Shown here: positions 9,696-18,860 of the stretch, one piece after another | How the letters are laid out: every line of letters begins with the position of its first letter | Numbering within the stretch: the stretch's first letter is position 1 | From: Citrus sinensis | Taxonomy: Eukaryota > Streptophyta > Magnoliopsida > Sapindales > Rutaceae | Assembly: GCF_022201045.2 (NCBI RefSeq) | Contig: NC_068564.1 | Location: 31,091,001 to 31,155,000, forward strand | Length of the DNA stretch: 64,000 nucleotides | Reading direction: 5' to 3' | Made by a program: the position numbers and the translations under genes | The notes under the pieces: generated by a model | What the model saw: the letters and a program-made list of their open reading frames with translations, nothing else | Told to the model about the DNA's origin: nothing | Databases searched by the model: none

Positions 9696-10558
9696 TTAAG
9701 TTTTTAATAAAGGACATCATAATTCTTTTTGACAATAATACCTTTGAACTTTATTAACTCAACAAAATTGACTCCGATGTTTTCTAATAAATAAAAATAT
9801 AATATTAAAATCAATGTAATAATATATACATTTTAAAATAATTTCAATATTTAAATACTTTTACAATCTTATATTATATTAATCTAAATTTTATAATACA
9901 TAGAAGCATAATATTAAATAAATATATAAAAATTTAAATTGTTCCCAATGTTATGTAAAATAATTTTAATATTATTAATACATGAGATCCATTTTATCAA
10001 TTGCAACATCTATTTAAGCCAAAGATTTATTTTAAAATTTTATGATAAATACAAATATATTATTAAAATAAATGAAATAATTTACATTTTAAAATTTATT
10101 TCATACATTAAAAAATTCTAATATTATTAGTTTATTAGACAAATTAAACCATTTAAATTATATTTGTATTCGTTAAAAAATTTTAAATTATAATTAAAAA
10201 TAAGTCTTAGCGTCCTTTATTTAAAATTTAAGAATTTTTATGATTATTTCCTTGAATCTTGAGGGTATAATGCCTTTTACTTTAATAATAATAATAATAA
10301 AATGTTTTGCCCGTTGTATTATAAAGTATGTAACCGATATATAACTTTTAGAGTGATATATCTAAATAGATTAAGAAAATAACAGAAATTATATATACTA
10401 AAACAAAAGAAAGTAGCATTATTCTTATTAATCAATATTATTCCCAAATCAAACATCAATATTAGTACTGTATCCTATATCCCTTCATGAAAATCAACTA
10501 TGAAATCTCAACTCCGATTGCAGCTGATGGACGTACTGTCTTACGACTACTATTCTAA

Positions 10559-10966
10559 TCACTTAAACAGTGCAGGTGGCGGTGACGGTGCATTCTGCTG
10601 CTTCTGGGGAATTGGTGTTGGTGGTTCATTCCTCACGATTGTTGTGCAGTAGTTTTGAAGTAGAGGAGGGAAGAAAGGATCAAAAGGAAACACCTTAGGC
10701 CAGCAATTGGCGTCAACTTCATTGAAGGCCTTGCAACAAGCACTCCCAATCAAATTCACTCTGAGGCTCAAGAATGCGGTTATGACTTCTTGCGCGCACC
10801 CGTGGACGCTTTCCAGAGTTGACAGGCATTTCGCGGCATCGGGATCCTGTCCTCCTTCATTTAATGGATTCTCAAAAATAACAAATGCTAATCCTGGAGC
10901 AGCCATCATGAATGAACACGTCAGGATCAGAGCAAACGAGTATCTGAAACTGATCACTTGAGCCAT
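10559..10966 (-). CDS. ECA1/prolamin-like secreted cysteine-rich protein B1
   Basis: A single-exon gene for 135 residues. The signal peptide spans about residues 1-27 (MAQ start, core ALILTCSFMMAAPGLA). Cysteines are at 47, 57, 77, 78, 88 and 107, with spacings of 10, 20, 1, 10 and 19, exactly those of the A proteins. It has FPFDPFFPPLL where A has FPWNPFFPQLL. The tail is Pro/Gln-rich. The MAQ start aligns with the second Met of the A proteins. A likely TATA box (TATAAAAA on the minus strand) lies at 11036-11043. The copied CDC26 leader lies upstream, so B1 shares its 5' flank with a dead CDC26 start. Function is inferred from the family only. Confidence 0.86.
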   Translation of the reverse strand: MAQVISFRYSFALILTCSFMMAAPGLAFVIFENPLNEGGQDPDAAKCLSTLESVHGCAQEVITAFLSLRVNLIGSACCKAFNEVDANCWPKVFPFDPFFPPLLQNYCTTIVRNEPPTPIPQKQQNAPSPPPALFK

Positions 10967-11457
10967 TTTGGTATATCAAGCTATATATATATAATTTGTT
11001 TTGGTTTTGTTGATTTGATTGTGATGGAAATTTGGTTTTTATAGGGCATGTCTCGTGACTGTTACATTCGAATTCAATGTTCATTTGTAACCTCAAGGTG
11101 TTAATATTGCATCTTAATTGTAGTACTTAATGAAAAAAAAAAAAAAGAATAAGTAAGTGGCAACCGGCAACAATTAATTAATATGTGCATGCGGTTTCAC
11201 ATTTTGACGGTTTGAGACATTGATGGTGTTTGATATTTTATCATACATTACAGAGTAGATTACATATGACACCTTATCTTTCTACATTATTAAAATCACC
11301 CCAAAAAGCTTTAAATATGCTCATTGAGTCTCCCCACTGTTACGCGTAATTTCCAATTTGGCAGTCACCCCACCAGTCAAATGTCAAAAGCCCTAATATA
11401 GATTCCCGCTTGGCATTTTGATTATCAACAGCAGCAGATCATTAGAAAATGCTGAAG
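10967..11457. repeat. Copy of the B-to-CDC26 intergenic region, ending in a dead CDC26 start
   Basis: This block matches 15418 to about 15930, with the B promoter at its left. At the right end the motif AACAGCAGCAG is followed by GAAAATGCT, which equals the CDC26 start context. After ATGCT the sequence departs from CDC26 and continues as the middle of an A gene. No CDC26 coding sequence beyond the first codons was carried. Confidence 0.75.
11036..11043 (-). promoter_or_regulatory. Putative TATA box of B1
   Basis: Minus-strand TATAAAAA about 70 bp upstream of the B1 ATG. It is conserved at 15498-15505 in front of B2. Confidence 0.5.
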
Positions 11458-11458
11458 G

Positions 11459-13644: not shown

Positions 13645-14640
13645 GGTTGATTTAATATGATTATTATTTATTTATTTTTTTAAAATTTTTTGGTGTTAAA
13701 ATTAAATATACTATCTTAATTGGTTAATGGATTGTAGTTTGAATTTTTTATAGTAGAGATTGTAATGTCTTGTAACATTATTTCATTTAATTTTCAGTAC
13801 TGTAAGTAGCTGGTCCTGAATTACTTTTATTGCATCATCTTAATGCAATTTCGGGCTAGAGACATTTATTTATAAAGACTATTCTAAAAACATTAACAAA
13901 TGTTCACTTTTACCATATGAAACAATCTTGTTTAAATATTAATTTTATTTGTTTATTTAAAAATTTATTAATTTTCTTAGATTGATAAATACAATTATTT
14001 ATGAGGTTGATTATAAGTCATCTTGCTCAATATTTTGGCATTCACCTGATCTCCTTGGAAATTAAAGTAATTTTTTCCTTTACCTTAATAATATTAATAA
14101 TAACAATAATAAGAGCTACAAAGCCTATAATCTCAAAATTTGAGAAATGATTATTTAGACCTTCAAATTTTTAATAAGAGACACTAAAACTCCTTTTGAT
14201 CATAATATTATTTGGCTTTATTAACTCAACAAAATTGACTCCAATGTTTTATAATAAATAGAAATATAATATTAAAATAAACATATAAAAATTTAAATTG
14301 TTCTCAGTGTTATATAAAATAATTTCAATATTATTAATGCATGAGAGACATTTTATTAATTTAACATCTATTTAACCCAAAGATTTATTTAAAATTTTTA
14401 TGATAAATACAAATATATTATTAAAATAAATAAAATAATTTACATTTTAAATTTTATTTCATATATTAAAAAATCAAATATTATTAACTTATTAGACAAA
14501 TTAAACTATTTAAATTATTTTTATATTTATTAAAAAAATTAAATTATAATTTTAAAAAAAAGTCTTGACTTCCTCTATTTAAAATTTGGAAATTTTCATA
14601 ATTATTTCCCTGAATCTTTGAGGGTATAGCTGCCTTCTAC
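13645..14640. other. AT-rich spacer of unit 4
   Basis: Conserved with the spacers of the other units. No gene was seen. It ends at the TAA microsatellite. Confidence 0.5.
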
Positions 14641-14641
14641 T

Positions 14642-14745
<104 letters not shown>

Positions 14746-15000
14746 GTGTTTTGCTCCTTGCATTACGAAGCATGTAACCAATATATGTCCTGTAAAATGA
14801 TATATTTAAATAGATCAAGGAAAATAACAGAAATTATATAAACTAAAACAAAAGAAAGTAGCATTATTCTTATTAATCAATATTATTCCCAAATCAAACA
14901 TCAATATTAGTATTGTCTCCTATATCCTTTCATGAAAATCAACTATGAATCTCAACTCCAATTTCAGCTAGCAGCTGGTGGACGTACTGTCTTACGACTA

Positions 15001-15417
15001 CTATTCTAATCTCTTAAACAGTGCAGGTGACGGTGACGGTGCATTCTGCTGCTTCTGGGGAATTGATGTTGGTGGTCCATTCTTCACGATCGTTGTGCAG
15101 TAGCTTTGAAGTAGAGGAGGGAAGAAAGGATCAAAAGGAAACACCTTCGGCCAACAATTGGTGTCAACTTCATTGAAGGCCTTGCAACAAGCATTCCCGA
15201 TCAAATTCACTTTGAGGCTCAAGAACGCGGTTATGACTTCTTGCACGCACCCGTGCACGCTTTCCAGAGTTGACAGGCATTTCGCAACATCGGGATCCTG
15301 TCCTCCTTCAATTAATGGATTCTCAAAAGTAACAGATGCTAATCCTGGAGCAGCCATCATGAATGAACATGTCAGGATCAGAGCAAACGAGTATCTGAAA
15401 CTGATCACTTGAGCCAT
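15001..15417 (-). CDS. ECA1/prolamin-like secreted cysteine-rich protein B2
   Basis: A single-exon, 138-residue paralogue of B1. The signal peptide spans about residues 1-27, and the six cysteines have the same spacing as B1 and the A proteins (47, 57, 77, 78, 88, 107). The FPFDPFFPPLL motif and the QKQQNAPSPSPALFKRLE tail are present. The tail is three residues longer than in B1 because the B1 stop comes earlier. A TATA-like box lies at 15498-15505. The gene is head-to-head with CDC26-TTM3, with 508 bp between the two start codons. The role is inferred from the family. Confidence 0.86.
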   Translation of the reverse strand: MAQVISFRYSFALILTCSFMMAAPGLASVTFENPLIEGGQDPDVAKCLSTLESVHGCVQEVITAFLSLKVNLIGNACCKAFNEVDTNCWPKVFPFDPFFPPLLQSYCTTIVKNGPPTSIPQKQQNAPSPSPALFKRLE

Positions 15418-15925
15418 TTTGGTATATCAAGCTATATATATATATAGATATATAATTTGTTTTGGATTTTGTTGATTTGATTGTGATGGAAATTTGGTTT
15501 TTATAGGGCATGTCTCGTGACTGTTACATTCGAATTCAATATTCATTTGTAACCTCAAGGTGTTAATATTGCATCTTAATTGTAGTACTTAATGAAAAAA
15601 AAAAAAGAATAAGTAAGTGGCAACCGGTGGCAACAATTAATATACATGTGTATGCGGTTTCACATTTTGAGGATTTGAGACATTGATGGTGTTTGATATT
15701 TTGTCATACATTACAGAGTAGATTAAATATTACCCCTTATCTTTCTACATTACTAAAATCTCCCCAAAAAGCTTTAAATATGCTCATTCAGGCCCCCAAC
15801 TGACAACTGTTGAGCGTAATTTATAATTTGGCTGTCACCACTCATCACGCCAGTCAAATGTCACACGCTATAATATAAATTTCCGCATGTCAGATTGATT
15901 ATTAACAGCAGCAGAGCATCAGAAA
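15418..15925. promoter_or_regulatory. Divergent promoter region between B2 and CDC26-TTM3
   Basis: A 508-bp interval between two divergent start codons. The left part holds the B2 TATA-like box (minus strand 15498-15505). The right part, next to CDC26, has no obvious TATA box, as is common for housekeeping genes. An intact second copy of most of it lies at 10967-11457. Confidence 0.6.
15498..15505 (-). promoter_or_regulatory. Putative TATA box of B2
   Basis: Minus-strand TATAAAAA about 80 bp upstream of the B2 ATG, conserved with B1. Confidence 0.5.
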
Positions 15926-16108
15926 ATGCTTCGAAGAAAAGCGAGCAAAATCGAAGTGAAAATCGAAGACAAAGAAGAACTCGAGCAAAACCGCAAATCC
16001 CCTTCCACCTCCGCCGCCAACTCAGCCTCAGCCTCAGCCTCCGCCTCCCTCCTCCAACTCCTCCCAAATCAAAACCCCAACTCGAAACCCCAACGCATCG
16101 GCCTCTAA
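15926..16108 (+). CDS. CDC26: CDC26, anaphase-promoting complex subunit (first cistron of CDC26-TTM3)
   Basis: A small 60-residue protein starting MLRRKASKIEVKIEDKEELE, the conserved CDC26/APC12 N-terminus that binds and stabilises a TPR subunit (APC6/CDC16) of the anaphase-promoting complex. The middle is low complexity (Ser/Ala repeat encoded by TCAGCC repeats), and the end is PQRIGL. In Arabidopsis, CDC26 is known to be encoded upstream of TTM3 on one bicistronic mRNA, and this arrangement matches. The stop TAA (16106-16108) is three bases before the TTM3 ATG, in the same frame. There is no other ATG in any plus-strand frame between the two starts. The ATG has A at -3. A short ORF like this is easily missed or dismissed as a uORF. 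Confidence 0.9.
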   Translation: MLRRKASKIEVKIEDKEELEQNRKSPSTSAANSASASASASLLQLLPNQNPNSKPQRIGL

Positions 16109-16111
16109 ATA

Positions 16112-16708
16112 ATGGAAGTAGAGCTCAAACTCCGCTTAAAAAACGCCGCATCCCATAAGCAACTGATCTCTCTTCTCTCCCAATTCCACACCAAAACCCT
16201 TCGCCAACACAACCTCTTCTTCGACACCCCAACTTCCTTCCTCTCCTCGCAGCGCTCTGTTTTGCGCCTCCGCAAGGACACCCGCTGTGTCCTCTGCCTT
16301 AAGTCAAAACCCTCGTTAGTCAACGGGGTCAGCCGGGTTGAGGAAGATGAGGAAGAATTGGACCCCGTTGTCGCAAAAGAGTGTATTGAGAATCCGTCGA
16401 AGTTGTTTGAGATTGAATCGAGGGTTGTGCGGAGAGTGAGAGCGGAGTTTGGAGTGGGGAGTGAAGTGGGGTTGGTTTGTTTGGGGGGTTTTGAGAATTT
16501 GAGACAAGTTTATGAATGGAACGGTTTAATTTTGGAGGTCGATGAGACTAAGTATGATTTTGGGACTAATTACGAGGTGGAGTGTGAGAGTTCGGATCCT
16601 GAGGGTGTTAAAAAATTGCTTGAAGGGTTCTTGAATGAAAATGGGATTGAATTTGAGTACTCCCAGATGACCAAGTTCGCAGTTTTTCGAGCTGGGAAGC
16701 TGCCTTAA
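16112..16708 (+). CDS. TTM3: TTM3-like triphosphate tunnel metalloenzyme (CYTH domain)
   Basis: A single-exon ORF of 198 residues, the usual length for plant TTM3. It starts [10 protein letters not shown] with the CYTH ExExK signature at residues 2-6. Tunnel residues follow in the expected order: [15 protein letters not shown], a basic RVVRRVR segment, and an acidic [17 protein letters not shown] strand pair. Members hydrolyse tripolyphosphate with a divalent metal, and the cellular substrate in plants is not settled. It is the second cistron after CDC26. Its ATG has A at -3 and G at +4, a strong context. A 3'-UTR intron (donor GTGAGT near 16713, acceptor near 18095) is possible but unproven. 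Confidence 0.92.
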
Positions 16709-18860
16709 TCAGTGAGTTTTTTTTTTTTTTTTTTTTTTTCAGTCATGGTTTTGTTGTTCAAATAAAACTGCCTTTGAAATGATCGTTTTTGTTCTAGTGG
16801 GTGTTTTCTAATTTGATGTTTACTCTTGCTTTAACAATTTATGAATAATGTTTAAGTTTCAGAGGATTTTGTTTTTAGCATGTGAACTTATTGGTGTTTG
16901 TAACTGAATTGGGGGATATTGGCTTGTTTTCCTTTGTGGAGTTTTATGGATTGTGCTCGTTTGCTTTACAATTGTTTCAGTATCATTTGAGAACTAACAA
17001 GTTTTAGGTGCTTTGACCGTTTTTGTATGAATGTATGCTTCATATAATAATTGAAAAAAAAAACTGAAATGTTTAAGAGTTTTATTTGATCATTTTGTAG
17101 GATTTCATGTTTCTATTCAGTATTTTCTCAAAATCAATCAAAAGAAACATTTAGCCCTTTCCGTTTACCCTTTATTTTGATATCAGCAAAGAACTGAGGA
17201 GACAGGAAATGGTGGTTGGCAGTTTAATATTTTGTGTTCTCAAATATGATACATTACGATCTTGGATACTGATAATTGTCTTTCTCTAACATTGTTAAAA
17301 TCATGGAGGTTGGTTTTATAATACATTTTTTTCTCTTTTCTTTTAGTTTGTTTGAGAATGTTAGAAGTGAAGCAACCTTTGGTTATCATGATTCTTCTGT
17401 TCAATCATCATTTGCGGTATCTAACTCCCTGGTTATTCCAAAATCATTTTGGTATCTCTATTGTAATCATTGATTGCAGTTTATTTAACTTGTTTGGAAT
17501 TATAAGCCTGTATTATATATAATGAACCTCAAGCTTTTAGCATTGTCTGTGGAATCCATCATCCATTTTACTTGTTTGCTGAAGTTTTTGATTTTATTGT
17601 CATTTACAAACCACCCCATTAATATTTACAGGCATTTGTTTTGATAGATAATGTCAATGATATGAATATATGTGATGCCACATGTATAGATATTTATATT
17701 TTACGGTTTTTGAACCTTTGATTGTGGATGTTTTTAGGAAGTTGCTCATATTTTTATTTCTCTCTGAGCTTTTAGAAGAGCATTTTTGGGCCTTCCAGAT
17801 AGTCCTATCATATTGATTAAGCAGCCTATGATATCATCCATGTTTATTGTTTTGTATATTTCACATGTTATGTGGTTGGAGGATTTGTGGTATCAATGAA
17901 TTGTGTCATTTAGTTTGACTCTTCATGAGGAAGGACTGTTTTTCCTTTTTCATTGTAACGTAATTTTCTCATGCTGTGGTACTTCTTAGAAAAAGTACAA
18001 GCAAAATCTATGTCTGTGCTTGAATTTTATGTGGGATACTTCGGAAACTTTAGTGCTCCTTCTAATCGAGATTCCATTAATTTCACCCTTTGCAGATATT
18101 TTTGAACAGTCACTGGTGAACAGGCATTGATTTGGAAGAGACCACCATAAAAAAGGTTCAAATTTCTGTGGGAATTATTGTTTCTAAAGTTTGATTACAA
18201 ATTCACCATCCATTGGGTGTTTTATTAGAATTCTGTAATTTCTATATTTATACAGTTGCTTATTTAACATTATATTCTGGTCACTGATGGGTTACTAATC
18301 CTTTTAACATTATGTTTATGCAACTATTGATTTCTCATGGATCAGCACACCAGTTTTACCAGTTTGATAGTAGTTGTTTCTTTGGAAAAGATAAAGAGAT
18401 AATAGCATATGCCAGATCCCCCTGATGGCCTCATATCATATATGATTTGGGGAGGTTATGATCAAGATTATTGAACGACAACAAATCCAATAGCATGTTA
18501 AAACCCAGCGCTATACATCTCTAATTTTATATATTTTGTGTTTTGCAAATACATATAGAAAACCCACTAAACAGAATTGCAATTAAACTAAATTTCTGCG
18601 AAGTGGTAACACAGATATTAGACAGCTAAGAATAGAAGCCCAAAGTATTTCTTAACACACCTCAAAACGCAGAGATATTAGGCAGGTAAGGATAGAAGCT
18701 CAAAGTATTTCTCAACCAAAAATATCTACATTTTTATAGTGATAAGAACCCTAATAACATTGATGTGATACCACTGAGGTGATAAGAAACCAATCTAGCG
18801 GTAACTACGTAAGTACGTAGTTCTAAGGCCTACTATAGAAAGCCTCACGAGTCACGTCAC
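16709..18860. other. TTM3 3' region and intergenic DNA
   Basis: T-rich sequence with no coding ORF. It may contain the TTM3 3' UTR with an intron. From about 18570 to 18860 it shows partial similarity to the 5' flank of P2 (20530-20700), so it is the promoter of the broken copy that follows. Confidence 0.5.

Follow-up and report, generated by a model that had tools for sequence, protein, structure and literature searches.

Sequence analysis of a predicted CDC26-TTM3 bicistronic gene of Citrus sinensis with a three-base, same-frame junction

In 2012, the Arabidopsis gene At2g11890 was listed under the conserved uORF group HG30 as putatively dicistronic, with cdc26 as its upstream ORF (uORF) (PMC3426882). 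According to PMC11062462, the similarity of the HG30 uORF to CDC26 is credited to two papers from 2012, and the peptide was shown to act as CDC26 in a 2019 paper cited there (Lorenzo-Orts et al., Nat. Plants 5:184). The role of CDC26 as a part of the APC/C needed for cell division is described as shown in Arabidopsis (PMC7943633, PMC11062462). As presented in PMC7943633, CDC26 is encoded upstream of TTM3 across the plant kingdom and is monocistronic in most eukaryotes, and the expression of CDC26 rescued ttm3 mutants. The pair is also cited in PMC9768141, and PMC9558237 treats a uORF whose product is a functional protein and which may regulate the main ORF. The CDC26_TTM3 pair is present in green algae as well, where it is described as deeply conserved after its first description in land plants; the same source states that the Arabidopsis transcript is up in NMD mutants and that translation of TTM3 raises the abundance of CDC26 (PMC11892635). 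In the published cases, a single mRNA contains both ORFs (PMC7943633, PMC6973038, PMC11892635).

The locus analysed here lies on contig 9 of the Citrus sinensis genome (299.7 Mb, 11 contigs), within a stretch of 64,000 nucleotides called the window, to which all coordinates given without a contig refer. Reading of the sequence showed that, as in HG30, a CDC26 ORF (ORF1) is placed directly upstream of TTM3 (ORF2) on a common strand. The initial annotation had described a 60-codon CDC26-like ORF ending three bases before the ATG of TTM3, and this proved exact: both the coordinates and the TAA-ATA-ATG junction were found, with a spacer of exactly three bases (ATA) between the stop codon and the second start. 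The two ATGs are 186 bases apart and, therefore, both ORFs are in the same frame. Only three ATGs, at 15887, 15926 and 16112, occur between 15860 and 16120. The features of the locus and of its surroundings are presented in Table 1.

Table 1. Features of the CDC26-TTM3 locus and neighbouring ORFs of the window.
Feature	Position	Strand	Remarks
Prolamin-like ORFs	1976, 4452, 7244		very alike; judged by eye save the tested one
Prolamin-like ORFs	10559, 15001	-	
Prolamin-like fragment	11456		judged by eye
TATA-box-like TATAAATTT	15874..15882	+	pattern match; promoter use would be an inference
Possible mini-uORF ATG TCA GAT TGA	15887..15898	+	relevant only if transcription starts upstream of 15887
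Cistron 1: CDC26 (APC/C subunit), ORF1	15926..16108	+	60 aa (60 codons plus TAA); start context AGAAAATGC; Pfam PF10471, human CDC26 alignment
Junction TAA-ATA-ATG	16106..16114	+	same frame; second start in context ATAATGG
Cistron 2: TTM3 (CYTH / triphosphate tunnel metalloenzyme), ORF2	16112..16708	+	198 aa (198 codons plus TAA); single open frame, no intron; ExExK at residues 2-6
Donor-like GTGAGT	16712..16717	+	consensus match only; just past the TTM3 stop codon
Prolamin-like ORFs	20689, 23226		proline-rich

The likeness to At2g11890 consists of the identical protein pair in the same order, with ORF2 aligning over its full length with the Arabidopsis TTM3 (AtTTM3), while the green algae share the same gene pair by the published description (PMC11892635). 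The locus is very probably the orthologue of the Arabidopsis CDC26-TTM3 bicistronic gene, i.e., a two-protein gene with one mRNA, and in C. sinensis one mRNA almost certainly spans both ORFs. The statement of the initial annotation that the Arabidopsis bicistron is known and its arrangement conserved is consistent with the accounts in PMC3426882, PMC7943633, PMC11062462 and PMC11892635. The arrangement of the two ORFs found here is real and is an ordinary member of an already published plant gene type, and its principle is not new. Noteworthy at this locus are the three-base same-frame junction and the absence of any second hit above the CDC26 cut-off in the genome search.

The protein encoded by ORF1 starts with MLRRKASKIEVKIEDKEE, an N-terminus that the initial annotation had read as that of CDC26, proposing a search of the 60-residue protein against APC/C subunit profiles. 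This search placed ANAPC_CDC26 (PF10471) over its curated cut-off, with residues 1-44 matched at 29.0 bits (cut-off 24.5; E 1.9e-6). The human CDC26 chains (3hym and 4ui9) align with ORF1 from Met1 to Met1 over the first 27-30 residues, including the MLRRK start, although these matches are weak (E 0.016 to 0.11) and no alignment extends past residue 30. The PDB sequence search with ORF1, carried out up to E 10, gave five distinct sequences, four of which were CDC26; the fifth, a photosystem protein with E 0.27, was taken for a chance match. The Pfam score and the conserved N-terminus at Met1 assign ORF1 to CDC26. The ORF is short, and its probable identity as CDC26 is argued from the Pfam match at Met1 and from its place ahead of TTM3.

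The second ORF is TTM3, as previously proposed, with a match far beyond chance. It was assigned to the CYTH family (PF01928, E 3.2e-22), and at E about 4e-71 it aligned from the first to the last residue with two structures of Arabidopsis TTM3, 3v85 and 5a5y; a match to DUF4027 (E 0.2) was below the cut-off of that family. The Citrus protein has 198 aa compared with 210 aa in Arabidopsis, and its stretch after residue 54 is shorter. An alignment of three sequences showed that ORF2 is 61% identical to AtTTM3 and 55% identical to a paralog located on contig 7, and that E2, E4 and K6 of the ExExK motif are identical in all three proteins. With the motif beginning at residue 2, a normal enzyme would have to be translated from 16112. 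The full-length CYTH domain and the N-terminal ExExK assign ORF2 to TTM3/CYTH, and its product is a predicted tripolyphosphatase/triphosphatase. The initial annotation had also tied the cell cycle to polyphosphate, a connection that is unsupported as a functional one in the literature cited here: CDC26 is reported to be essential, and TTM3 is seemingly dispensable under favourable conditions (PMC6973038).

The search of the genome for CDC26, which was read exon by exon with no intron model, so that a CDC26 split by introns could escape it, gave two places: this locus and a copy on contig 3. In the genome-wide Pfam scoring, only one of these two candidates was over the cut-off, namely this locus (26.9 bits, E 0.002). 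The contig 3 copy (L002 1501-1626) was rejected on its sequence as a second working CDC26, as its 19.7 bits are below the cut-off of 24.5 and its reading frame is only 41 codons long. The DNA similarity of this copy stops at codon 32, the protein match reaches residue 38, and the substitutions E10K, R23C and S29F are present. Besides CDC26, the duplicated piece on contig 3 includes the shared promoter and the adjacent prolamin-like gene in its 5' part, and the TTM3 protein search of the genome found no TTM3 beside it.

The same TTM3 search gave two places, this locus and a full-length TTM3-like gene on contig 7. No CDC26-like start, defined as M-[LIVFM] followed by three K/R, was found in the three forward frames of the 1.5 kb preceding the contig 7 gene. 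This paralog (L004 1444-2117) has an in-frame ATG 19 codons ahead of the start that bears ExExK, and it may either carry an N-terminal extension ahead of the motif or use the second ATG. The CYTH family search gave two further partial matches over the cut-off on contigs 3 and 4 (L015 and L016), the one on contig 3 with a TGA inside; both possibly represent exons of additional CYTH genes. No relatives of the locus were found in the contig collections scanned (with the TTM3 alignment, and with TTM3 and CDC26 on the viral ones), which hold only bacterial, archaeal and viral contigs and are uninformative for plants.

A third copy of the promoter is present in the window itself: positions 10549-11453 are 90.5% identical to 15000-15930, in tandem, and since the query began at 15000, the copy may extend further left. 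It holds a prolamin-like gene and the CDC26 promoter, breaks off after the first five bases of CDC26 and continues, at about 11456-11458, in a prolamin-like fragment that is in another frame. A whole-genome search with 15562-15930 gave the same three places, i.e., the locus itself, the copy in the window and contig 3. Prolamin_like-type ORFs form a cluster between 1976 and 24149 of the window. The family PF05617 was confirmed in all three of the ORFs tested (2042, 15004 and 20716), the remainder being judged by eye. A long run of AAT triplets lies at about 14640-14745.

The TATA-like sequence upstream of CDC26 is imperfect in both duplicate copies (contig 3 and the one at 11.4 kb in the window), and the ATG of the mini-uORF is kept in the contig 3 copy and absent from that at 11.4 kb. 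Downstream of TTM3, six candidate acceptors were found for the donor-like GTGAGT, none of which was singled out, and an AATAAA at 16761 competes with the reading as an intron. These elements point to one of two things, an intron in the 3' UTR or polyadenylation at an early site. Such an intron would place the CDC26 stop codon, unlike that of TTM3, some 600 nt ahead of an exon junction, which could account for the decay control described for Arabidopsis (PMC11892635).

Both proteins could be obtained from a single capped mRNA that would start just upstream of 15926 and carry both ORFs. Ribosomes initiating at the first AUG would produce CDC26, the small APC/C subunit, and those passing it would encounter no further AUG for 186 nt and would initiate at the AUG of TTM3, producing the triphosphatase. 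Such leaky scanning appears to be the likeliest way to TTM3, with a probability that we regard as moderate. Both starts have A at -3, whereas +4 is C in ORF1 and G in ORF2; these contexts would fit leaky scanning only mildly. With A at -3, the context of the first AUG is not weak, so much leakiness is not obvious. Use of the TATA-like element would give CDC26 a leader of just 20 nt or so, a value derived from this pattern match only, and with such a leader ribosomes would more readily bypass the first AUG. The AUG-free interior of ORF1 was considered as a sign of leaky scanning and rejected: when the protein was recoded synonymously 20,000 times, no extra ATG arose, and 75% of trials with shuffled codon order and 33% of those with shuffled single bases were free of ATG. 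No unusual RNA fold was found between 15906 and 16200, where 85 of 200 shuffles were as stable (z -0.10), which gives no sign of a structured IRES; likewise, no Rfam family was over its gathering score within the window.

The very close spacing of TAA-ATA-ATG raises the question of re-initiation, in which ribosomes would finish CDC26 on the bicistronic mRNA and immediately go on to make TTM3. Post-termination 40S subunits are described as able to shift a short way in both directions, but re-initiation declines with the length of the ORF and is best after ORFs of few codons (PMC11892635). Moreover, the mutants of two other loci in green algae, which concern a gene other than this one, fit leaky scanning better, although some re-initiation is allowed by the authors (PMC11892635). 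We consider re-initiation doubtful at this locus. Its coupled form in this lineage, where an in-frame TAA-AUA-AUG with almost no spacer would make TTM3 dependent on the termination of CDC26, is quite unlikely; if true, it would tie the level of the TTM3 enzyme to that of an APC/C subunit. The shared frame, with one sense codon (ATA) separating the stop codon from the ATG, would also allow stop-codon readthrough into a CDC26-TTM3 fusion. However, TAA followed by ATA is not known as a readthrough context, and it is at the ATG that both the ExExK motif and the TTM3 chain of the Arabidopsis structure 3v85 begin, which makes such a fusion exceedingly improbable. An arrangement of two genes, each with its own promoter and the downstream one transcribed from within ORF1, would agree with the contig 7 gene, a TTM3 type without CDC26 ahead of it. 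The three-base gap, however, leaves no room for an intergenic promoter, and the transcripts reported from Arabidopsis and algae contain both ORFs (PMC7943633, PMC6973038, PMC11892635), so this arrangement is highly unlikely.

The reading of the locus as a CDC26-TTM3 bicistronic gene is supported by the single CDC26 over the cut-off in the genome taken together with the reports that CDC26 is essential (PMC6973038) and rescues ttm3 mutants (PMC7943633). In plant nuclei, polycistronic coding is uncommon, and the locus is a clean case in which a gene model keeping the longer ORF alone would lose the sole CDC26 over the cut-off found in the genome. The very tight spacing of three bases in the same frame makes it useful for testing how a second ORF is translated.
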